Source: Balneola sp.
GTDB taxonomy: Bacteria > Bacteroidota > Rhodothermia > Balneolales > Balneolaceae
DNA: 64,000 nucleotides
Assembly (NCBI GenBank): GCA_028284195.1
Contig: JANQSE010000017.1
Coordinates: 124,001 to 188,000, forward strand
Direction of reading: 5' to 3'
This document shows positions 16,732 to 31,712 of this stretch, piece after piece (within the stretch, counting starts at the first letter, position 1; every line of letters begins with the position of its first letter). The translations under genes were made by a program, and so were the position numbers. The notes beneath the pieces are model-generated. The model was given only the letters and a program-made list of their open reading frames with translations. It made no database searches and was not told the origin of the DNA.

Positions 16732-17637
16732 TTAACTTTTATTGTAACTCATAAGAATTAAGTCTTCTGCTTTTCTCAGATCCTCTTCAGAACGGATCGT
16801 TATTTCAAGGTCACCAGTTCCGAGATGACCAATAGAGCGCACATCCCTTGTGAATCCTTCTTCAAGTTGTATTTCATCAGGATTAACTTTGACATTTAAA
16901 AGAAGCTTGTTGCTTTGTGTATAAATTTCAATGCAAGCAAAATTCTTAATTCGTTTAAAGGCTACATAGTATTTAAGATGTTTTTCCTGGACATCATCTC
17001 CAAGCGAAAGCATATAATCCCGTACCGATTCATAAAGCTGAACTAATTCTGCTCCAGCTGATTCAAAGTGATCCTTGAAGCCTTTATAGTTTGCTTTTGA
17101 AGTACCAGGCTTACTTTCCAGTGTCCCTTTGGCTTCTGCTACATTTACCAACTCCAGTAGTAAAAGATCTTCTTCAAACTTGATATAGCGTATAAGCTCG
17201 ATATTCCGGTTCATTTGTTTTACGGCATGTTCATCGAATTTTGTAAATGCTCCTGCAATGCATAATAATCGGGGGTTATTCCATTCGATACTATTAGAGT
17301 GCTCCTTTCCATACTTTTTAAGCACTAAGAGCTCAAATTCAGCTTTGTGATCCATTAACCAGTCCAGGTAAAACAACCCCTGGTTAATCACATTTTCGTC
17401 CCGATGGCGTTTGTATTCAATGATAACCGGACTACCATTTTCATCAATACCCAGTGTGTCAATGCGCCCACCATGACTAGCTCCGGTGGAATATTCTGTT
17501 TCCAGGAAACGTACTCCTAGATAGGTTTCCAGGTTTTTTTCTATCTGGGATTGCAGGCTTTTTTCAATATTAGCTGTTCCCCCAGAAAGCTCGGTTACCT
17601 GATTGTTACTCGTTCGAAAAAGTTTAATGTCTGACAT
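16732..17637 (-). CDS. PD-(D/E)XK nuclease-fold protein (DUF5655/NucS-like)
   Basis: In this 301-residue protein, residues ~25-130 contain a PD-(D/E)XK-type core: Asp60 in GGRIDTLG followed by Glu74-Tyr-Lys76 in PVIIEYKR, then a supporting QGLFYLDW helix. The last ~100 residues (from about GFKDHF) look like the DUF5655 domain often fused to this nuclease fold, including LKYYVAFKRIKNFACIEIY. Related proteins are annotated as predicted transport or DUF5655 proteins without proven activity. It is the first gene of the accessory stretch that ends with the restriction-modification genes, which suggests a nucleic-acid or defence role, but this is context only. Confidence 0.75.
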   Translation of the reverse strand: MSDIKLFRTSNNQVTELSGGTANIEKSLQSQIEKNLETYLGVRFLETEYSTGASHGGRIDTLGIDENGSPVIIEYKRHRDENVINQGLFYLDWLMDHKAEFELLVLKKYGKEHSNSIEWNNPRLLCIAGAFTKFDEHAVKQMNRNIELIRYIKFEEDLLLLELVNVAEAKGTLESKPGTSKANYKGFKDHFESAGAELVQLYESVRDYMLSLGDDVQEKHLKYYVAFKRIKNFACIEIYTQSNKLLLNVKVNPDEIQLEEGFTRDVRSIGHLGTGDLEITIRSEEDLRKAEDLILMSYNKS

Positions 17638-17712
17638 ATTTTAAGGATTAATCAATTGCTACCCAATATAATTAATTCTTTTCGATTTAATGCTCAACCT
17701 TTACTTTTAAGA

Positions 17713-18648
17713 ATGGAATATCTGCTAACCATATTCTCAGATAAAATTGGTCCTCTTCTTAATCGAGCGTGGACATACACACAATATGTTTGGAATAACT
17801 TATTCAAACGCTCTAAGCCATACACAAATGAAGAAGCGATGGAATATGCTTATGGATTACTCTCAGGGAGCATAGTTGAAATTCAGTCTTTTAGAAATTT
17901 TTCAAATGGTAATATCTACATTATTGCAAAAGCAAAAGAGAAGAAGGAGGAGTATTTTTTTAAGCTAATTCTACTTAAAAAAGTCGGTAGTACATTTATT
18001 AGAGAATGGGACCAAGAATTAATGAGCTTTACCGAAGATTTTGAAATTATTGATCTACAAAAAATAGGAAGCCATTTTATTCTATTTATAGAAAACTCCT
18101 TTGGTTCTGGAGCAGGAACAAGAATCTTATATGCACTTAACTCCTCCAGTAAAGAATTGTTCAAAGTAATTGAACATCATGATTGGTCAGATATGACACG
18201 TGTATATACGCCTACTATAGAATTCAGCCCTAAGGATATAGATCAGAAGCTTTTGAAAAGTCTGGAGAAGTATGCCTTGGCTAAAGAGATGTTAAAGGGA
18301 AAACGAGTCGATTTTTCTATCCCTGAATATGCTGTCCGTAATTGGCATCGTATGAATGGAGAGATTAAGAAAGGTGATGTCGAACTTTATTTTTATCCTG
18401 GACGGCCAACTTATAGTAGTTCTCCGACTGAAGTAGTTCATTCTGATAACATTGAATGGATTGGATATTTCAAGGGCCCCCTCTGTGGCTATCTAAAAAA
18501 GAAGAATGAGCATTTTGTCGCCTATTCTCCAGGTTGGACTTATGATTGGCCACAACACCTGAAGTTGAAAGGAAAAGGCATACAATTTACTTCTGGAAAT
18601 CATACACTCCATTTTGAGTTGAAAGGTGATAAAGGAATACTCAGCTAA
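17713..18648 (+). CDS. Hypothetical protein, unknown function
   Basis: The frame is open from TTG 17656, but ATG 17713 is the better start because what follows reads as a normal N-terminus (MEYLLTIFSDKIGPLL); this gives 311 residues. No domain was recognised. The protein is rich in aromatic and charged residues, with several beta-like stretches (YFFKLILLKKVG, VELYFYPGRPTYSSSP) and no signal peptide or membrane span. It lies back-to-back with the nuclease-fold gene and 13 bases upstream of the DUF4145-like gene. It is probably in an operon with the latter, inside the accessory region. Nothing more can be said about its job. Confidence 0.6.
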   Translation: MEYLLTIFSDKIGPLLNRAWTYTQYVWNNLFKRSKPYTNEEAMEYAYGLLSGSIVEIQSFRNFSNGNIYIIAKAKEKKEEYFFKLILLKKVGSTFIREWDQELMSFTEDFEIIDLQKIGSHFILFIENSFGSGAGTRILYALNSSSKELFKVIEHHDWSDMTRVYTPTIEFSPKDIDQKLLKSLEKYALAKEMLKGKRVDFSIPEYAVRNWHRMNGEIKKGDVELYFYPGRPTYSSSPTEVVHSDNIEWIGYFKGPLCGYLKKKNEHFVAYSPGWTYDWPQHLKLKGKGIQFTSGNHTLHFELKGDKGILS

Positions 18649-18661
18649 AATTCAATCATGT

Positions 18662-19435
18662 ATGCACTTAGATGTCATTAAAATTTCCCGAATCATCAGC
18701 AGAATGGAAGAACTGTATAACAGAATACTTACCAGTACTTTCGATGGCGAAATGGATAAAGAGGCAGTTCATGAATACAAGGAAACTAAAAAGGAACTCT
18801 TGCTTTATCTTTTTGATAAACCCATACAGACAACCGATTCGAAATACTTTGCTGATGTCCGCAAAAGACTCCAGCGACTTACCCTAAATGGTGACCCCTT
18901 TATTCCGGATAGATCATTTGATGATGAAAGTTTAAACAAGACACTGAAAATATTTAAAGATTTATTAGATCCCGAGTTCTCATTTGACGAGCTAAGTAAG
19001 ATTGCTTCAGACCACTTCTACTCATGGTTCTGTGGTGAGGATTATGTCGAAAATAAGCTTAGAAGTCAGATTCTTTTTCTTCAAACTGAGCGATTACCTG
19101 AACACTTCAAAGCTTTTGTAACCGAAATACAGGATTGTTACAATTTCCAACAATATATAGCAGCTACTGTACTATGCAGAACCATCTTAGAAATTGCTGT
19201 GAAGGATCTTTTCCAAAGCAATAATTTGAGCGGAGGTAAACGGTTAACGCTTTTTCAAAGAATGGAAAAATTGAGCTACTTACCCAAATTTGCTCTATAT
19301 AAGCCAGATATGGATGATGTTCGTGAATTAGGAAATTCAATCATTCATGGTGAAGAGACTGCTAATCGAGAAACATCTACAGAGATGATTAAGAAAACAT
19401 TCTTCCTGATTCATCATTTGTACGAGGTGAATTAG
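18662..19435 (+). CDS. DUF4145-like (HEPN-like helical) protein
   Basis: ATG 18662 is preferred over GTG 18626, which lies inside the preceding gene; ATG 18704 is also possible. The 257-residue protein is alpha-helical. Its C-terminal part matches the DUF4145 pattern: YIAATVLCRTILEIAVKDLF, a short linker, then DVRELGNSIIHGEE with an N-x3-H-type motif. DUF4145 and related HEPN-like domains occur in defence and restriction-associated genes, some as RNases, but no catalytic R-x4-6-H motif is clear here. Placement between an unknown gene and the invertase/RM block supports an accessory or defence role. Confidence 0.65.
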   Translation: MHLDVIKISRIISRMEELYNRILTSTFDGEMDKEAVHEYKETKKELLLYLFDKPIQTTDSKYFADVRKRLQRLTLNGDPFIPDRSFDDESLNKTLKIFKDLLDPEFSFDELSKIASDHFYSWFCGEDYVENKLRSQILFLQTERLPEHFKAFVTEIQDCYNFQQYIAATVLCRTILEIAVKDLFQSNNLSGGKRLTLFQRMEKLSYLPKFALYKPDMDDVRELGNSIIHGEETANRETSTEMIKKTFFLIHHLYEVN

Positions 19436-19500: not shown

Positions 19501-20109
19501 CTATTCCTGCTTGTACAGTTTATGCTTTTTTGCGAAAGAAGCTACCGTTAAACGATGTACTCCTAGTATCCGTGCAATGGCACTGAACGATACTTTTTTT
19601 TCTAAAAGTTCCTGAATCCTTTTCTCTTGACCGGTTAACTTAGTTCTTGATGACTTCCTTCCTTTTGGCCTACCAAGCACAACTCCCTCCGCTCTCTTTC
19701 GAGCTAATGCTTCTTTCGTACGTTGAGAAATTAGATTTCTCTCTATCTCAGCTGCCAAACCAAAAGCAAATGCTAATACTTTTGAATTAATATCATTTCC
19801 CAAACGATAATTATCTTTGATTGTCCAAACATGGACATCTCTTTTCATACAATCATTTAGAATTCCCATAATCATCAGTAGACTTCGACCAAGACGAGAG
19901 AGTTCAGTACAAATCAAAATATCATCTTGCTTCATTTTTTTTAAGAGCCTCCCCAGCTTCCTACGCTCCATTTCCTTTGTTCCTGAAATAGTTTCTTCTA
20001 TCCATTTATCAACCAGCAGTTCTTTTTCTTCACAAAATCGGTTGATTTCAAATCTCTGGTTCTCCACAGTCTGCTTATCTGTACTTACTCGAATATATCC
20101 ATATATCAT
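19501..20109 (-). CDS. Small serine recombinase (DNA invertase/resolvase family)
   Basis: The 202-residue protein is the size of Hin/Gin-type invertases. The catalytic domain starts MIYGYIRVSTDKQ with nucleophile Ser9. It continues through CTELSRLGRSL and FGLAAEIERNLISQRTKEAL (the long E helix) to GRPKGRK. A C-terminal helix-turn-helix follows (SFSAIARILGVHRLTVASF). The family cuts both DNA strands at paired short sites and rejoins them after rotation, giving inversion when the sites are opposed. The gene abuts a DNA segment bounded by inverted repeats within the neighbouring methylase gene, so it is the obvious candidate enzyme for inverting that segment (inference). Confidence 0.93.
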   Translation of the reverse strand: MIYGYIRVSTDKQTVENQRFEINRFCEEKELLVDKWIEETISGTKEMERRKLGRLLKKMKQDDILICTELSRLGRSLLMIMGILNDCMKRDVHVWTIKDNYRLGNDINSKVLAFAFGLAAEIERNLISQRTKEALARKRAEGVVLGRPKGRKSSRTKLTGQEKRIQELLEKKVSFSAIARILGVHRLTVASFAKKHKLYKQE

Positions 20110-20110
20110 T

Positions 20111-20145
20111 TTTATACTATTTTTTGGTTAAAAAAATAGTATAAA
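20111..20145. repeat. Perfect 15-bp palindrome upstream of the recombinase start
   Basis: The arms TTTATACTATTTTTT (20111-20125) and AAAAAATAGTATAAA (20131-20145) are exact reverse complements around the loop GGTTA. The dyad begins 1 base upstream of the recombinase start codon (20109-20107) and ends 7 bases before the outer inverted repeat of the silent cassette. It could be a recombinase-binding site (autoregulation or accessory site) or an mRNA hairpin limiting recombinase translation. No second copy was seen at the other edge of the invertible segment, which argues against it being a crossover site. Confidence 0.75.
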
Positions 20146-20152
20146 GAAAACC

Positions 20153-20177
20153 ACCGATTTTACGCGGCAGGGATATT
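20153..20177 (+). repeat. Outer inverted repeat, silent-cassette copy (IR1)
   Basis: This 25-base site encodes ILRGRDI in the cassette. It matches the reverse complement of 21405-21429 at 20 of 25 positions: the first 9 bases (ACCGATTTT) and last 8 (GGGATATT) are identical, with 5 mismatches in the middle. Serine-invertase sites tolerate imperfect flanks if the central dinucleotide agrees. Confidence 0.75.
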
Positions 20178-20371
20178 CGCAGATATGGGTATAACTTTGG
20201 TGATCGATGGTTAATAAACACTCATAATGGAAGTAGAGAAAGTGGCATTGAGCCTGTAAAAATTGAAGATTTTCCGGCAATTAAAGAACATCTGGATCAG
20301 TATTATGACAAACTGAAATGTAGGACTGATAAAGGAGTTACCGCCTATAATCTTAGAAACTGTGCTTATAT

Positions 20372-20395
20372 GGAGGATTTTTTTAGACCGAAAAT
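20372..20395 (+). repeat. Inner perfect 24-bp inverted repeat, silent copy (IR2)
   Basis: The 24 bases start GGAGGA, contain seven consecutive T and end CCGAAAAT. They are an exact reverse complement of 21181-21204. The encoded EDFFRPKI is conserved, but complete DNA identity over 24 bases stands out because the sequences on both sides have diverged strongly. That points to recent exchange or to a maintained recombination site. Confidence 0.85.
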
Positions 20396-20807
20396 AATCT
20401 ATCCGGATATTATGCGTATGCCACGAAAATTTGAGAAGCTTGGAGAGTATCCTTATTTCTATTTGGATAAAGAAAGTTTCTACATTGAAGCAACGAATTT
20501 TATGATGACAGGGCAAAATATCGATATAATTTATTCATTTCTTACATCCGATTTGGGGTTCTTTACTTTTTCAAAATTTTATACAGGACCACAATTTGAT
20601 GCAACAGGATTTCGATATAAAAAAGCCTACTTAGATGAAACATTTGTTCCCAAGCCAGATGACAAGGAAATTGAAACTTTACGAAATATTTTAAAAAGGA
20701 TAAAAAATCAAAAAGATAAAAATCGAGAAATGGATTCTGCTTGGTATGATATTATTGATTTAAGTGCTGAAGAAATTCAATATGTAAGTCTTTACAAAAA
20801 TAACTTG

Positions 20808-23800
20808 TTATCTCAAACTTTCGATAAAAACAATCTCATCGTGTGACAATCCGCAGATTCTATAGATTTGGGAGTTGATGCTGGTGATATCTATTTTTTT
20901 TGCCTTCAATTCTGATAAAGAGAGCAAAAACTCTTTTTCTTGTTTATCTGTGATGGTAGGGACAAATAGTTGTCCAATAGTAAACTTTGACCATTGGAGG
21001 GTTCCCACACCTGTTGTAGTTGCAATTTTGGAAAACAAATGTTCTGATAATGGGGAATTCAAGAAGCAGACTAAATATTCTAACTTACTACCCGACAATA
21101 AGTAGCATTTATTATTAATGAAATATTTGCCGGACTCATCCAATACAAAATTGGCGTTATCAGATATCTCTCCCCATACAATTTTCGGTCTAAAAAAATC
21201 CTCCCAATAATTTATACTATCCTGTGTTTCGAACCATTCATTATTAGTTTTTTTTCTGGAACCTCGTTCGCCGGTTTGTTTGAGTCGATCATATCCAAAC
21301 GACAATAGATGCTCTTTTATAGCTGGGTATTGTTCAATATCGTAATTCATACTTGGAAATGTAGCAATCAGCCATAAGTCAGCAAATTGGTAGTGATAAC
21401 GTTTAATATCCCGTCCTCTCAAAATCGGTCTTATAATTTCGGCAGATTTTGGGTCCTTAGCTATGAGCTCATTTTTCTTTTCACCACTTATAATAAATGC
21501 CTCATTATAACCTGTTTTGATGCCATAATTTATTTGGACATCCCAATCTTTAAGAGGCTTTCCTATTTTTTCAATCTTATCTTTTATTCCTTGTTCAATT
21601 GATGATAGTACAACCCAACTATCACCATTATTAAATTCTATTTTTGTCCTATGCTTAGAAATATAAACACCCAAGTTCGGTATTGATTTTTCCTTTATGA
21701 CACATGCTTCAGTCGTCGTTTCGCTTAATCCTTTGCTAAATAAGAGAATGTTAGTGTCAACTGTTGCCGATTTAAACACTTTCTGACCAGCAAAATCTAT
21801 TAACAAAATTGGGTTTGTTTCTTTAACAAAAAAATTCCTCGTTGAAGCACCATATCCAGCTCTCATCCACTTATTAGAGGTAATAAAGCATAAAACTCCT
21901 TCTTTCTTCAATAATTGATTCCCTTTTTCATAAAAAAGGGAATAGATATCTCCCATCCGTTCAAAAGTCTGAAAACTTTGAGAAAAATACTTTTTTGCTA
22001 GCGCTCCTCCGTCTTTTTGCAATTGAACATAAGGAGGGTTGCCTATTATCAAATCGAAACCTTTCACACCAAACATCCATTCAGGATCAAACCAGCTTGA
22101 TAAATCATGACTAAAAGGGTCCCAGCTACTTATTAAGTAAGCACGACTTGTTACATCTAAATTTTTTCCTAACTCAAATTGAGACTTAATAATCTTATCC
22201 TGAATTGCTTTAAATCTGGATTTTATATGTTTTTTTTCGTCTCCAAAGCTTTGTAAGTAGTCAATTCTCAGTTTTTTTAGCTTTTCTAAGTCATCATTAG
22301 AATTAAAAAGCCCCCCAAAATTTTCTTCTTTTGGCAAGCTTAGTAGTGTATCAGCAGTGACAAATTTAAATTCTAAGTTTGGAAGAGGTTCCACCCCTCT
22401 GTTAGGCTTAGATTCATCTATATTTTCATCCACAACTAACGTAAGAAAACAACGGAGCTTAGATATTTCAGCAGCAATTGGTTGAATATCTACGCCATAA
22501 AGTGAGTTTTGAATAATTCCTATCTTGCGAGCATATTCTATGCTTGCCTGATCCATTTTAGATTTAATCTGCTGCCGGATATAGGCATTGTCTATTTTCT
22601 CTATTTGACGAGCCTTCCACCAAGCTGCTTGTGGATCAATTTTCTGTAGTGCTATCACAATTTTTTGTAATACGCCCATTGGAAATGCTCCAGAACCACA
22701 GGCTGGATCCAAAATTCTTACTTGATTTAAGGCCTCTAGTATCTTCTCTTTTTCTCCAACAGAAAAAAAAGATACTTCTTCTTCTGTCATCCTGAATAAT
22801 AGACGTAGCTGATCTTTATCAAAGCCACTCTTATTGTGTAGATATTGTACCAAGCTTTCAGTAGCCATATAAGCCACTACTTCACGTGGTGTATAAAAAC
22901 TTCCCGTTGCTTTTCGAGCTGATTCACCAGTATCAGGGTCAATTTCAGCTAACAAATTTTCGAATATTCGACCCAACATTTCTGGATCAATACTTACCTC
23001 TACTTCGGTTATTGAGTTTTCATCTATCGTGAAGTTGTATTTCTCTAGCTCCCCGAAAAATTCCAAAAACCAATGATCTTCAATTTTTAACGTATTCAGA
23101 TGTTCTGAAAGCCCAGTAACTGAATTTGCCTTGTAGTAATCTTCCACATCGGGTTCAAATAAACCTCCGTTTAGAAAAGGAATATCATTTGCTTCACCTG
23201 GGAGACCATCGACTCTATCTGGAATCGGAGTATTTAAAATTTGAAAGAATATTTTTTCAAGGATAGAGTGGTAATAATTGTGATATTTCTTTACCGCACT
23301 TGAGGATAGCAGTTCTTCTGGAAGTAGAGCCTTTCCTTCCTCAGATTTTTTCATTTTTAAAAACCAGCAAAAAACAATTCTACCAATAAGTCTCACTGCA
23401 AATTCTTGGTAAATCCTTCTATTCTGATTCGGACTTAATCCTGGCAACTTTAAAATAGCCTCATACTTCTTTGACTTGCTTCCTCTTCTAACATTTCCTC
23501 CTACAAGCTTATAAAACTGATCTGATATAATTTTATAAAACTCCTCATTCAAAGCCTCAACGCTGAATGCCTCCCTTATATCCTCTAACGATAAAGATTT
23601 ACGTACAAGCCGGCTTAACTGAATTGAAGGGGTCAATACTTTTTCGCCTACCCCAAGCAAATAGGTATATCTTTTTGGCTCAGTTGCTCGCTTAATTACT
23701 TCTCCCTCTTCATTCAGAACCTTTATTTCAGATACAAAGGAAAGCCGCCATTTTTCATCCTGCTCAAATACGATAAGAGCTCCATCAACATCATATTTAT

Positions 23801-24074
23801 ATACATTCCTAAGTAGTTCCCTCAGGCCCACTTTATTTCGGTCCAACCATACATCCGAACTAACATTTACTTTGTATAAACCTATTACCCTGTCATCAGA
23901 TGTAGTAAAACTCCCTAATTCATAAGCTGTATCCGCTTTATCATTTTTTGGAAGAATTATTTCTTTCGGTTGCGCCAATAATTGTCTGGCGCCAAAAACA
24001 GACTTTACAAGATCCAACCAGCTTTGGGAGTTGAATGGTTGAGTTAATATTTCTTGTAGTTGCTTTTTATCCAT
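20808..24074 (-). CDS. Eco57I-type N6-adenine DNA methylase/RM enzyme with switchable C-terminal specificity region
   Basis: In this 1088-residue protein, residues ~1-140 form an N-terminal domain of the kind found in large type II/IIG-like methylases (segment NKVGLRELLRNVYK); a nuclease active site there is not certain. The gamma-class methylase core has FYTPREVV at ~393, motif I DPACGSGAF from Asp456 and the catalytic NPPY at 679-682. After that come target-recognition sequences: the first variable half lies between LRGRDI (~890) and EDFFRPKI (~957), the second runs from there to the end. It methylates adenine in a specific site chosen by this region. The helicase/PLD gene ends 8 bases inside its start, so the two form one unit. 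A divergent silent version of residues ~885-1088 lies inverted at its 3' end. Confidence 0.92.
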   Translation of the reverse strand: MDKKQLQEILTQPFNSQSWLDLVKSVFGARQLLAQPKEIILPKNDKADTAYELGSFTTSDDRVIGLYKVNVSSDVWLDRNKVGLRELLRNVYKYDVDGALIVFEQDEKWRLSFVSEIKVLNEEGEVIKRATEPKRYTYLLGVGEKVLTPSIQLSRLVRKSLSLEDIREAFSVEALNEEFYKIISDQFYKLVGGNVRRGSKSKKYEAILKLPGLSPNQNRRIYQEFAVRLIGRIVFCWFLKMKKSEEGKALLPEELLSSSAVKKYHNYYHSILEKIFFQILNTPIPDRVDGLPGEANDIPFLNGGLFEPDVEDYYKANSVTGLSEHLNTLKIEDHWFLEFFGELEKYNFTIDENSITEVEVSIDPEMLGRIFENLLAEIDPDTGESARKATGSFYTPREVVAYMATESLVQYLHNKSGFDKDQLRLLFRMTEEEVSFFSVGEKEKILEALNQVRILDPACGSGAFPMGVLQKIVIALQKIDPQAAWWKARQIEKIDNAYIRQQIKSKMDQASIEYARKIGIIQNSLYGVDIQPIAAEISKLRCFLTLVVDENIDESKPNRGVEPLPNLEFKFVTADTLLSLPKEENFGGLFNSNDDLEKLKKLRIDYLQSFGDEKKHIKSRFKAIQDKIIKSQFELGKNLDVTSRAYLISSWDPFSHDLSSWFDPEWMFGVKGFDLIIGNPPYVQLQKDGGALAKKYFSQSFQTFERMGDIYSLFYEKGNQLLKKEGVLCFITSNKWMRAGYGASTRNFFVKETNPILLIDFAGQKVFKSATVDTNILLFSKGLSETTTEACVIKEKSIPNLGVYISKHRTKIEFNNGDSWVVLSSIEQGIKDKIEKIGKPLKDWDVQINYGIKTGYNEAFIISGEKKNELIAKDPKSAEIIRPILRGRDIKRYHYQFADLWLIATFPSMNYDIEQYPAIKEHLLSFGYDRLKQTGERGSRKKTNNEWFETQDSINYWEDFFRPKIVWGEISDNANFVLDESGKYFINNKCYLLSGSKLEYLVCFLNSPLSEHLFSKIATTTGVGTLQWSKFTIGQLFVPTITDKQEKEFLLSLSELKAKKIDITSINSQIYRICGLSHDEIVFIESLR
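21181..21204 (-). repeat. Inner perfect 24-bp inverted repeat, expressed copy (IR2)
   Basis: This is the exact inverted partner of 20372-20395 within the methylase gene, at about residues 957-965 (EDFFRPKI). It separates the two variable halves of the specificity region. Confidence 0.85.
21405..21429 (-). repeat. Outer inverted repeat, expressed-gene copy (IR1)
   Basis: This is the partner of 20153-20177 inside the methylase gene, at about residues 882-890 (ILRGRDI). It defines the point where the active and silent specificity regions start to correspond. Confidence 0.75.
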
Positions 24075-27000
24075 TCCTAAATGTCTCAGTAATTACTATC
24101 TCAGGAGTAATATTTACTTCTATCTCCGTTTTCATTTCTTCATCAGCTTCCTGAGCCATTGCATCATATTTGGCTGCTAATGCAAGTATTAAGTTGTCTG
24201 CTTGTCCATAGGTAATCGTTTTCTTTTCAAGTTTTCTCCTTAACTGCCTGACCTCATTAGGTAATGGTGTATAAGTACCTTTATCAACCAAATCTAATAA
24301 TGCTTCACACGCCTTTTTTGTCTTTCCTTTTTTGGTAAACCCTTTAAAATCCCGAAGAAACTTTTTTGCCTGAGCAGAAATTGCATCTGCTTTATCTGCG
24401 GTAGTTACAGCTTCCGTTGTTGACCCTAAAAAGTCTTTATCGAAGTCATCCAGCGCAGCCTGAACATGTGCGTAATGCTCCGAGGGGATATCCAGCCCTT
24501 GTTCGTTCACTTCTGCTTTGAACAGCTCTGCAGCTTCAATGAAGGTTAGAGTAGAAACATCTTTTTCAGAACTCACCTTATAGAACTCCATCTTGTAAGG
24601 AGACTTTAAGAAGATAAGTGAGCCATCTTTTACCGACTCATCATTAGCAAAGTCATTCTTTCTAGCTGTTCTCGCTTTGAGTGGAAACTTTTTTATTCTT
24701 TTGAATTCGTTCGGATTATTATCCTTGAACTCTCTTATAAACCTGAGATATATTAGTCTCTTATCTTCCTCGTTTGGCATTCCCTCCTTGAAAAGCTCGA
24801 ATTGTTCCAACATTTCTTCATGTGAATAAATCTGAGCATCTTCTCCAAAAGCCGTGTGAAACCCCTGAAGCTTGATCAGAGCATTATTGTATAACTTGAT
24901 CTCCTCGTCTCCTTGTTGGGAGGGGTAGAAGTTATAATTATAAATGGTATCTGATACGCTTCCAATCCGGTTTACCCTTCCTATTCTTTGCATCAATCGG
25001 GTAGCATTCCAGGGCGTGTCATAGTTGATAACTACGTTGGCACGATGAAGGTTTACCCCTTCAGCAAGTACATCTGTTGTAATAAGAATATCATAGTCAT
25101 TCTTTTGAGTGCCTATATAATTGGCATCAAAATTTTGCTGAATAACATCGAATATCTTCTTTCTGTTTTTAGAAGATATCTTTAGAACTGTGTGATCTGT
25201 TTGTGATTCGATCTTTTCGGCAAGATAACTGGCGGTATCATTGCTTTCTGAAAAAATGATTAGTTGGCTGGTAGGATTAATCTCCTTGTCCAAAAACTCT
25301 GATTCAAGGGTTTCGAAGAAAGTATCCAGTTTAGGATCCTCTTCTATTTTACCCCATTCCTCCGACAGCTCTTTTAGTAAGTCTCTGTCCTTAGCCAATC
25401 CTTTAATAAATTCTTCTTCAAAATCTTCGGAAGCAAAAATATTGTTTTTGGGGCTTTCAATACTAAGCTCAAGGATCAACTCTTCTACTTCTTCCATACT
25501 GAAGCCCTTTTCGATTAGCTCATTCACATTTAAATCCGGCGCGATGAACACTTTGTCATTTTCGAACATTTCGATCATCCGCTCAGTAGATCGAAGTAAG
25601 TTGTTTAAAGTAATACCGAATGCATAAAAGCTGCTTTCTAGCCTTTTAATCATCATGGTTTTCATGATTCCGGCCAAAGCCTTGGAGACTAATATGGCTT
25701 GATCGTAGTATGCCTCTCTTTTTTCTTCAATTAAAAACCGAATGGCCTGGTAACGATAATATCCAATCTTATCATCGTCAGTAAGATAAAACACTGTTTT
25801 ATAGAACAGCTTACTCAGTTTGGCATTAAGATCGTAACGTACAGCTCTCGGAAGCGCTGGTTCCGGAAAATTGATACCCTGACTTTCTAAGTCATCAATG
25901 TATTTAGGATAATTTCTTAAATCCTTCCGGGTCCGTCGAACTGTAATCTGAGAAATGATCTTCTCCCTGATAATGGTATAAAGCTCCCGAATTCGACTTA
26001 TATCCGGGTCTTTGCTTTTTATGATTTCGCGATATTCCCTAATAATTGGACCAAAGAAGGACTGCAAATTGGTTTCTGAAAGGGTACTTCTTCTTGAATC
26101 TTGAAAAAGTAATAATTGATAGTACAAATCCTGTGGTCGATTATTCAATGGAGTAGCTGATATCAGGATCACCTTCTTTTTTTTACCCGAAATTAGTCCA
26201 TCACCGTTTCTTGGAGCTTTACATATGCGCTGCAAATTCCCAAACATGGTTGAAGTATGATTCCTGTACTTATGGGCCTCATCTACCAGGACCAGGTCAT
26301 AATCCTCTTTAGCCCAATAATTGAGATCATCACCCTTCAGTATCTTTTCGAGTCTACCATTGGTAATAAACTTTGTATGGCGATCTATTCCAAAAAGACG
26401 AAACGTATTCTTCCAGTTCTTTTCTAATGCCGGAGGGTACACAACCAGAATCTTAGTGTTCAATGAGCCGTTGGCAATCAAAAATCGTTTGGCTATCATG
26501 GATGCAACAACGGTCTTACCCAGACCCACCACATCCGATAGGAAAAACCCATTATGTTCCATTAACATCTGGAATCCTTGGTTTACAGCATCTACCTGAT
26601 AGCTCAATTTTTTATAGCTTTTTGGAAGATCTCCAACCGTATCCGGATCGTAATCAATGTTATTACCAAAATACTCGATGAGTAGTTTAATGTAGATCTC
26701 AAAAGGGGTGAAATTCTGGCCTATGTGGGTTTTCTTTTTGAAGGCCTGAATATCTGTAGGTAAAATCGGAGTAGACTCTGCCCAAAGTTGTTCAAATTCC
26801 TTCTTTGCAAAGTTTACATCATCAAAATCTTTTAAAGCAATATTAAGTTCATAATTTGGAGATTGTTTAATTCCTAACCCTGCTTCTGTTAGGTTAGAAG
26901 AGCCCATAATCACCCATCCGTCTGAGTGTTCAGTATGCACCTCTGGAAGGAATAAGTAAAATTTTGCGTGTATGGCTTTTGAGTTATGCGCCCTTACCTC

Positions 27001-27366
27001 AATCTTACCTTCAATCAAGTCATCAATAAAATCTAGTATCCCATTTTCAACATCCTCAGAATACTTTGCTTCTTTGAGGTCTTGGATAAACCATTTTAGA
27101 AATTCATCCTTGGTTTTTTCTTCATCTCCAAAATAGAGCAACCCTTTTCTTTGTGCTTCCGCAAACATTTGATCGACATTGATTCCTACCAAGATCTTTA
27201 CATCCAAGATATTTTCTAAATAAGGTTGGAGCGCGAAATATCCAGAAGACCGGAAATACCCAACAACGACATGAAAGGCATAAACATCTTTCATGTGTTC
27301 AAAAATGCCCGAAAACTTATTGAATAACGTGTTCTCGTTGCTGTTTGTGAAGAAGTTAGAACTCAT
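24067..27366 (-). CDS. PLD-family nuclease fused to SNF2-type helicase (restriction partner of the methylase)
   Basis: In this 1099-residue protein, residues ~1-200 are a phospholipase D-like domain with His133-x-Lys135 (IHAKFYLFLPE) and the following GSSNLTEAG (155-163), the usual HKD half-site; two such domains in a dimer would make one nuclease site. Then comes an SF2/SNF2 motor: Walker A GLGKT at 281-285, DEAH at 362-365, and SATPLNNRPQDLY. The C-terminal helicase lobe has TTDVLAEGVNLHRANVVINY and QRIGRVNRIG. The tail is helical and unassigned. Expected role: ATP-driven translocation or remodelling on DNA lacking the partner's methylation, with cleavage by the PLD domain. The gene overlaps the methylase start by 8 bases. 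It is not a standard type I R subunit. Confidence 0.9.
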   Translation of the reverse strand: MSSNFFTNSNENTLFNKFSGIFEHMKDVYAFHVVVGYFRSSGYFALQPYLENILDVKILVGINVDQMFAEAQRKGLLYFGDEEKTKDEFLKWFIQDLKEAKYSEDVENGILDFIDDLIEGKIEVRAHNSKAIHAKFYLFLPEVHTEHSDGWVIMGSSNLTEAGLGIKQSPNYELNIALKDFDDVNFAKKEFEQLWAESTPILPTDIQAFKKKTHIGQNFTPFEIYIKLLIEYFGNNIDYDPDTVGDLPKSYKKLSYQVDAVNQGFQMLMEHNGFFLSDVVGLGKTVVASMIAKRFLIANGSLNTKILVVYPPALEKNWKNTFRLFGIDRHTKFITNGRLEKILKGDDLNYWAKEDYDLVLVDEAHKYRNHTSTMFGNLQRICKAPRNGDGLISGKKKKVILISATPLNNRPQDLYYQLLLFQDSRRSTLSETNLQSFFGPIIREYREIIKSKDPDISRIRELYTIIREKIISQITVRRTRKDLRNYPKYIDDLESQGINFPEPALPRAVRYDLNAKLSKLFYKTVFYLTDDDKIGYYRYQAIRFLIEEKREAYYDQAILVSKALAGIMKTMMIKRLESSFYAFGITLNNLLRSTERMIEMFENDKVFIAPDLNVNELIEKGFSMEEVEELILELSIESPKNNIFASEDFEEEFIKGLAKDRDLLKELSEEWGKIEEDPKLDTFFETLESEFLDKEINPTSQLIIFSESNDTASYLAEKIESQTDHTVLKISSKNRKKIFDVIQQNFDANYIGTQKNDYDILITTDVLAEGVNLHRANVVINYDTPWNATRLMQRIGRVNRIGSVSDTIYNYNFYPSQQGDEEIKLYNNALIKLQGFHTAFGEDAQIYSHEEMLEQFELFKEGMPNEEDKRLIYLRFIREFKDNNPNEFKRIKKFPLKARTARKNDFANDESVKDGSLIFLKSPYKMEFYKVSSEKDVSTLTFIEAAELFKAEVNEQGLDIPSEHYAHVQAALDDFDKDFLGSTTEAVTTADKADAISAQAKKFLRDFKGFTKKGKTKKACEALLDLVDKGTYTPLPNEVRQLRRKLEKKTITYGQADNLILALAAKYDAMAQEADEEMKTEIEVNITPEIVITETFRNG

Positions 27367-30170: not shown

Positions 30171-31712
30171 ATGGCAGATATTTTATGGGTAGATGACCAA
30201 ATTGATGAGTTACGATCTCATATCATCTTTTTAGAAAAAAAAGGATTTAATATTGAGCCGGTTGCCAATGGAGAAGATGCTGTAACCATAATCCGTGACA
30301 AAGCCTTTGATATCGTTTTTTTGGATGAACAAATGCCAGGAATGGGTGGTATCGAAACCCTGGAGCAAATCAAGAATATGCAGCCTCAGCTTCCGGTTGT
30401 AATGATTACAAAAAGCGAAGAAGAGTCCATTATGGAAGATGCTATTGGAGGGAAAATATCGGATTACCTCATTAAACCTGTCAATCCAAATCAAATTCTG
30501 CTTACCACCAAAAGAATTTTGGAACGCTCCCGGCTGCAAAACGAAAAATCGGCACAATCCTATCTGAAGCAGTTTGGAGAACTTTCATCCAGAATACATC
30601 CTAAAACTGGATGGAGGGAATGGATAAATATCTACAAAGAACTTTCGAAATGGAAAATGGATTTGGAATCAGGTGATGAAAATCTGATCCATGTATTGGA
30701 TGATCAATTGCAGGAAGCAAATAAAGAGTTTGGCAAGTTTGTTGAGAGTGAATACAAAAATTGGCTACACATTGAAAATGACACACCAATTCTTTCTCCG
30801 GAAATAATTTCAAACTATGTGCAACCTCATTTAGAGGATGACAAAAAGGTTATGTTCTTTCTAATTGATTGTATGCGCTACGATCAATGGTTGACTTTTG
30901 AAGCCGTGCTGGCAGAGCATTATAACATTGAAACTGATTTCTATTATTCGATCTTACCTACTGCTACACCATATTCCCGCAATGCCATTTTTGCCGGGTT
31001 GTATCCATCAGATATTGAGCGTTTGTATCCCGATCTGTGGCAGCAGGGGCAGGATGAAACTTCTTTAAACCGCCATGAGGAGGAGTTGCTTAAACGTCAG
31101 CTGGATCGAGCCGGAATTAATATCAATTTCAAATATGAAAAAGTATTAAATGCTCAGGAAGGGAAAAAAATCGCTGATAAAATGCAGAACTATACCCAAT
31201 CTCGTTTAGCAGCATTTGTATATAATTTTGTAGATACCCTTGTTCATTCCCGGTCAGATTCTGCTGTAATTAAAGAACTCGCTCCCGATGAATCTGCATT
31301 TCGATCTATTACAGAGGCCTGGTTTATGCACTCCAACTTGCTCCAAATGTTCAAGACCCTGGCAGAAGAAGATGTAACCGTAATAGTAACTACCGATCAT
31401 GGCTCGGTTCGTGCACTTCGAGACACCAAAGTTTTTGGAGACAAGGCTACTGCCAAAAACCTCCGCTATAAATATGGCCGAAATCTTAAAGCAGATGAAC
31501 AGAATGCCGTGTTCTTTATGGATGATCCCGAAGGGTTTAAGCTTCCCGCAGTAACAGGGATTAATAACTACATTATTGCGAAAGAAGATTATTTCTTTGT
31601 GTATCCAACCAATTACAACAAATTCCAGAACCGGTACAAAGATACCTTTCAACATGGTGGTGCTTCTATGGAAGAAATGATTTTGCCCATAGCCACAATG
31701 ACTCCCAAGTAA
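30171..31712 (+). CDS. porX: PorX: response regulator with PglZ-type (alkaline phosphatase superfamily) effector
   Basis: In this 513-residue protein, the N-terminal receiver has VDD at 7-9, phosphoacceptor Asp52 (VFLDEQMPG) and Lys in LIKPVNP. A helical linker leads to a PglZ/alkaline phosphatase-like domain from about residue 200, with [12 protein letters not shown], a nucleophile-like Thr/Ser region ([14 protein letters not shown]) and the metal-site TTDHGS. This fusion is characteristic of PorX, which controls the type IX secretion system together with the kinase PorY and a sigma factor, and is reported as a zinc-dependent phosphodiesterase. The porY gene is not in the window. PorQ, another type IX component, is encoded at 47873-48868. 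Confidence 0.93.

Follow-up and report, generated by a model that had tools for sequence, protein, structure and literature searches.

A candidate DNA-inversion switch of methylase specificity in Balneola sp., with an adjacent gene for an Mpi-family serine invertase

We have analysed a 64,000-nt stretch of DNA from Balneola sp. (GenBank assembly GCA_028284195.1, contig JANQSE010000017.1, positions 124,001 to 188,000 of the forward strand; hereafter the window, with positions counted from its first letter) in which the gene for a Type IIG/Eco57I-like N6-adenine methylase is accompanied by an inverted copy of its own C-terminal recognition region and by a recombinase gene. Judged from sequence, this arrangement is best read as a DNA-inversion switch of methylase specificity operated by a serine invertase, and we hold that reading with considerable confidence. 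An earlier reading made from the letters of the window alone (the sequence-only reading) had proposed an inversion switch by which an Eco57I-type methylase would exchange its recognition region, and the proposal has since gained support from ten other loci with the same layout, from a site motif that is conserved at the DNA level and from contig breaks in two genomes. The main crossover probably takes place at a short exact inverted repeat within EDFFRPKI codons (site B), with about 0.83 kb being flipped, and not at the LRGRDI boundary of the duplicated region (site A).

The methylase gene, its inverted copy and the candidate crossover sites

Coordinates of the elements discussed here are collected in Table 1. 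The methylase gene is the second in a two-gene unit; the first encodes a PLD (HKD)/SNF2 helicase and shares its last 8 bp with the start of the methylase gene. The methylase is a single chain in which a gamma-type adenine methylase core (Eco57I, N6_Mtase), with an NPPY motif at residue 679, is followed by a C-terminal TaqI_C recognition region, which is the arrangement of Type IIG (Eco57I-like) enzymes. Between the methylase and recombinase genes lies an open plus-strand frame (20151-20846), the homologous part of which has no start codon. In a tblastn comparison this frame was 32% identical to the methylase C-terminus over 220 aa (E=1e-23), and by itself it matched Type IIG methylase models (E=1e-36). 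The frame is open over 231 codons. As had been proposed, the startless frame is colinear with the methylase C-terminus, of which it is a diverged copy placed tail to tail.

The 2 copies carry inverted repeats at corresponding codons and in the same phase, again as the sequence-only reading had it. At site B, the arms are identical in 24 of 24 nt, and in 28 of the 30 nt of a slightly wider segment, and are read in the same frame. When codons were resampled with both protein sequences held fixed, a shared run of at least 24 nt arose in 5 of 400 trials. The genome has exactly 2 occurrences of the 24-mer, one on each strand, and both are at this locus, even if 3 mismatches are allowed. At site A of the window, by comparison, the same codon is used for only 3 of 7 identical residues. 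When inversions were made in silico at either site, or at A and B successively, a single methylase frame always stayed open, of 1114 aa for B, 1112 aa for A and 1086 aa for both. The sequence-only reading had placed the main crossover at the LRGRDI boundary (20153/21429); the homology does start there, but the extent of shared codons favours site B. We regard site A as a second boundary, which may be weaker or older.

In an AlphaFold model of the methylase (mean pLDDT, the predicted local distance difference test score, of 78, with lower values in the recognition region), site B corresponds to residues 958-965 and is flanked by 2 low-confidence stretches of the recognition region. This position is compatible with a module boundary, though not proof of one. 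The nearest relatives of the model were CamA, BrxX/PglX, M.BseCI and MmeI.

The adjacent recombinase gene, of the Hin-like size that had been noted earlier, could be assigned more narrowly: the match to NF009949 (the NCBIfam "master DNA invertase Mpi" family) is well over the curated cut-off of that model, and on this evidence the protein is specifically an Mpi-family serine invertase. It has the layout of small serine recombinases, with an N-terminal Resolvase domain followed by HTH_38 (the latter just below its Pfam cut-off), and it is the only Mpi-family gene in the 2.68-Mb genome. An alignment over 16 loci showed the recombinase to be intact and conserved, with near invariance of N-terminal RVS and ELSRLGR segments. 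Between the start of this gene and the silent copy, beside site A, is a perfect palindrome that is possibly an operator or hairpin controlling the invertase. An AGTATAA-like sequence was also seen just 5' of the silent copies in two of the related loci described below (L119 and L120).

Table 1. Positions in the window of the methylase switch locus and its parts
Feature	Position	Strand	Remarks
Site B, methylase arm (EDFFRPKI codons)	21181..21204	-	GGAGGATTTTTTTAGACCGAAAAT; best candidate crossover site
Site B, silent arm	20372..20395	+	Exact 24-nt inverted repeat of 21181-21204
Site A, methylase arm (RPILRGRD codons)	21407..21431	-	Start of homology with the inverted copy
Site A, silent arm	20151..20175	+	Preceded by neither a start codon nor a methylase body
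Mpi-family serine DNA invertase, 202 aa	19501..20109	-	NF009949 343.3 bits (cut-off 272); Pfam Resolvase 3e-36
Type IIG/Eco57I-like N6-adenine methylase, 1088 aa	20808..24074	-	Pfam Eco57I 8e-39, TaqI_C 1.6e-10; PADLOC REase_MTase_IIG 548 bits
Expressed a-module, type I ("TFPS" type)	21205..21406	-	68-79% identity to type I a-modules of L118, L119, L120, L121 and L047
Expressed b-module, C-terminal half of recognition region	20808..21180	-	39-bp tail-to-tail overlap with silent copy
Silent a-module, type II ("THNG" type)	20176..20371	+	61-68% identity to type II modules in other loci; pN 0.20-0.28, pS 0.64-0.96
Silent b-module of inverted copy	20396..20846	+	Open as far as its own stop codon
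PLD (HKD)/SNF2 helicase	24067..27366	-	Pfam PLDc_2, SNF2-rel_dom, Helicase_C; PADLOC "HKD+Snf2" 166 bits
Perfect 15-bp palindrome, 5-nt loop	20111..20145	.	

Related loci and their recognition modules

Ten further genomes share the layout of the window (loci L041, L047, L107, L118, L119, L120, L121, L123, L142 and L143), with recombinases 62-83% identical to that of the window. A first scan, in which species genomes were searched with the methylase and each locus was then compared with itself, yielded L041 and L047, from metagenome-assembled genomes (MAGs) of Bacteroidales, and L107, from an Elusimicrobiaceae MAG, each with an inverted C-terminal copy and an Mpi-type recombinase. Profile searches added L118, L119, L120, L121 and L123 from 394 genomes of the window's phylum, and L142 and L143 from 344 genomes of another order. 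The 394 genomes also contained L122, in which a partial copy is inverted but the sequence ends before any recombinase is reached. In a search of 296 genomes with the recombinase only, all 5 genomes that gave matches at E<=1e-50, the window's own included, had a switch locus beside the best match. The recombinase adjoins the copies in every complete locus, and the helicase is near the methylase in most of them, though not demonstrably in all (for example, L118 and L142). Since the 7 genus relatives of the window are without the recombinase, the module is accessory. The window has the structural features of an inversion-switched restriction-modification (R-M) locus, namely an inverted alternative recognition region, in-frame inverted repeats and an adjacent recombinase. 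Conservation across phyla extends to the layout, to the motif of the site and to the intactness of the silent frames.

The additional loci allowed the repeats to be compared as DNA. Pooled over 8 loci, 51 of 61 identical residues at site B share their codon, as opposed to 222 of 471 in the remaining recognition region (Fisher p=2.8e-8). The corresponding count for site A was 33 of 58, with no excess over the rest (p=0.10), and this pooled comparison does not confirm an exchange at A in the window; site A is well conserved as DNA in L120, L121, L041 and L107. The sequence GAGGATTTT was present in all 12 EDF copies of the switch loci and in none of the 20 homologous positions of loci not classed as switches, most of which carry another protein motif, xEFEKEK. 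Two of these 20 positions, in L036 and L039, read DDFSKQKI and lie on contigs that stop 62-76 nt past the motif start, and these may be unrecognised switch loci. By this pattern of conservation, site B is a DNA element that is conserved beyond the needs of the protein motif. In L047, L118 and L121 the duplication reaches further upstream and starts at a related sequence, AGCGTTTTTnTTAGAC (site C), from which the L121 version departs after TTTTTGT.

Two conserved types of a-module are found between sites A and B, with identities of 59-79% within type I and 61-83% within type II, as against 28-40% between the 2 types. The window, L118, L119 and L047 have type I on the expressed side and type II on the silent side; the order is reversed in L120, and L121 combines a type I a-module with a third type. 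The b-modules are much more diverse (19-57%), and one a-type may be paired with several b-types. In the silent type II a-modules, which are untranslated in the assembled orientation, the proportion of nonsynonymous differences (pN) is 0.10-0.27 and that of synonymous differences (pS) 0.64-0.96, a ratio by which these modules are under purifying selection. The distribution of modules, taken with this selection, fits repeated exchange of the whole recognition region, and not of the b-module alone.

Several further observations concern single loci. L036 and L039, which are from Clostridia MAGs, carry a site-B-like sequence, GACGATTTTTCTAAGCAAAAAAT, close to the contig end. In L047 an additional b-module (L047:11358-11741) lies in direct orientation between methylase and inverted copy; this third piece of recognition region starts exactly at a site-B sequence. 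Two C-terminal methylase tail pieces (ELYGLTEEE) are found 3' of the recombinase in L041 (L041:6170-7171), suggesting further cassettes or remnants. In L040, from a Clostridiales MAG, a methylase frame ends just at site B next to an Mpi-type recombinase (L040:9990-10948); this locus is degenerate or rearranged. In L041, L107 and L123 the same recombinase family is found with recognition regions of 2 other classes (YFKEGFCW and APEISxGGN types), which have in-frame repeats of their own. A profile of the L041/L107 class gave one strong match in the 394 genomes, and this match was without a switch. The search of 296 genomes with the recombinase gave a sixth match, a second Mpi-type copy in G292 that is 57% identical and is located amid phage-like genes, with no methylase copy nearby (L171:1492-2139). 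The viral contigs contained 3 methylase relatives, which were uninformative with regard to switching.

Proposed inversion mechanism and its alternatives

Indirect evidence for flipping comes from the ends of contigs. In genome G655, a contig with the helicase, the methylase and a type I a-module stops at ...GGAGGATTTTTTTAGACCAAAAAT, and a second contig, with the recombinase and a type II a-module, stops at the identical base; the run shared between the 2 contigs consists of those 24 nt only. Contigs of G737 likewise stop exactly where the shared part of site B ends, after a common run of 17 nt. The density of contig ends puts the probability that both ends would fall on the site by chance at about 2e-9 per genome, and several further genomes have contig ends within 76 nt of the motif start. 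A 24-bp repeat should not halt an assembler that uses longer words, and both continuations are therefore to be expected in the reads of G655 and G737. The breaks are, indirectly, as expected if both orientations are present in those reads.

We propose that the invertase would pair the 2 arms of site B and cut at a core within GAGGATTTTnnTAnnnCnnAAAAT, such that the fixed methylase body, with its a-module, would continue in frame into the other b-module. In some loci, and on some time scale, the outer arms of A or the further-upstream arms of C may be used as well, by which both modules would be exchanged and the 2 copies could give rise to up to 4 proteins. Specificity is likely to be set by the methylase, both for its own action and for that of its PLD/SNF2 helicase partner, and a flip should therefore alter the methylated motif, and the attacked one, in a subpopulation of cells. 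The helicase would restrict DNA that is without the mark. A population could in this way hedge its bets against phages or mobile DNA, and gene expression might change as well. In this scheme, we infer the action of the recombinase on B (and on A or C), the activity of the hybrid enzymes, the change of motif and restriction by the helicase. A more elaborate version of the scheme, to which we give about equal chances of being right and wrong, has one Mpi-type invertase acting on 2 or 3 nested site pairs set in conserved codons (C upstream; A, RPILRGRD; B, EDFxxxKI). The a and b half-domains would reassort independently to give at least 4 specificities per locus, with an extra b-module in some loci (L047), and at B the DNA site would dictate the protein sequence (EDF, and not the xEFEKEK that is common in single-copy relatives).

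Several observations weigh against the proposed switch or parts of it. The b-module contigs are absent from the G655 and G737 bins, and a mixture of 2 strains fixed in opposite orientations would give the same contig breaks; moreover, runs of N in G737 separate the a-module from the methylase body and the recombinase, leaving its side uncertain, and we have excluded G737 as evidence on orientation. A Pfam family search found no nuclease family in the methylase chain, to which the best Type IIG model aligns from residue 224 onward only, and a restriction activity is accordingly suggested only by the PLD domain of the helicase. Site A is poorly conserved as DNA in the window, such that the region as a whole may be exchanged only rarely or no longer. 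Finally, the window was assembled in a single orientation on one contig. This last observation, together with the divergence of site A and the occurrence of degenerate versions such as L040, would also suit a locked or decaying relic, in which the inverted copy is what remains of an ancient duplication and has ceased, in this strain, to be a target of the recombinase. We consider a relic unlikely: the silent frame has stayed open, with pN far under pS, within the genome the exact 24-nt site is found at this locus only, and the recombinase is intact here and throughout its alignment.

Inversion might also take place without a change between specificities, if the hybrid proteins were inactive and the flip simply turned the methylase on or off. 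Yet both versions hold a complete recognition region that matches Type IIG models, the silent a-module is under purifying selection, and in L120 it is the other a-module type that is on the expressed side; an on/off device thus seems to us quite improbable. The explanation to which we give the least weight, and which we think very improbable, has the copies exchanging sequence by homologous recombination or gene conversion, and regards the recombinase as incidental. Near-identical stretches upstream of site A in L047 and L121 (243 nt with one mismatch, and 96, 111 and 32 nt exact) are long enough for such exchange. However, no exact run exceeds about 28 nt in the window, L119, L120, L041 and L107, no complete locus has its recombinase elsewhere than beside the copies, and the contigs of G655 break exactly at B. 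We therefore prefer inversion by the Mpi-type invertase between alternative specificities.

Relation to known systems and significance

The Mpi invertase of Bacteroides fragilis flips many promoters genome-wide. The window differs in having one dedicated copy with its sites inside coding sequence at a single locus, and it gave no sign of global control of many promoters, site B being confined to the switch locus. This is a difference in the use of the invertase, not in its family. B. fragilis Mpi, a serine invertase (Coyne et al. 2003, as cited in PMC11892184 and PMC10939037), has in common with the window recombinase both the NF009949 family and DNA inversion. Invertible hsdS genes are known for Type I R-M systems, for example in S. 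pneumoniae (PMC4948785). As in the window, inversion between repeats joins alternative recognition regions to a fixed protein, and several repeat pairs give combinations; the switch locus, however, has no HsdS, and the swap would take place within the C-terminus of a one-polypeptide Eco57I-type methylase by means of an Mpi-type serine invertase. We rejected membership in Type I R-M, as no Type I S-subunit family was found among the scanned proteins of the locus.

The pglX gene of bacteriophage exclusion (BREX) systems is phase-variable by inversion. It shares with the window an inverted second C-terminus of an adenine methylase, and the window model resembles PglX/BrxX, but the methylase partner in the window is instead a PLD/SNF2 helicase. 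The PglX model scored 73.6 bits, as against a cut-off of 500, and no PglZ or BrxC was noticed among the neighbouring frames; a PglZ-like frame at 30171-31712 resembles, by reading, PorX and not BREX. Membership in BREX was rejected, as was that in the DISARM (defence island system associated with restriction-modification) group (DrmD, 134.9 bits as against a cut-off of 610). The nearest solved structures over the methylase and recognition region were CamA and M.BseCI (E 8e-47 and 4e-40), adenine methylases like that of the window; these 2 are single enzymes that are not known to switch or to have an inverted copy.

Two neighbouring genes deserve mention. A match to the PADLOC candidate defence family PDC-S18 (16732-17637, minus strand, 486 bits) lies nearby, and the switch may therefore sit in a defence island. 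A DUF4145 protein gene (18626-19435, plus strand, with an alternative start) adjoins the recombinase gene and overlaps an unknown gene at 17656-18648.

The inversion of R-M specificity genes is already known as a general idea, and a 2023 genome-wide survey of gene-altering programmed inversions by Milman et al. reportedly predicts inversions in Type II R-M genes. We found no description, in the open-licence papers, of a helicase-linked methylase combined with a dedicated Mpi-type invertase and with sites in conserved codons. The layout has proved not to be unique to this genome. The locus would add a widespread family, that of the two-gene methylase/PLD-helicase units, to the Type I and BREX systems as users of programmed switching of specificity, and a type of recombinase that flips promoters would here be employed inside a gene. 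It would also constitute a compact natural system in which recognition half-domains are swapped at one fixed codon position, and from which one could work out what bases each half reads and how restriction specificity may change without self-attack.

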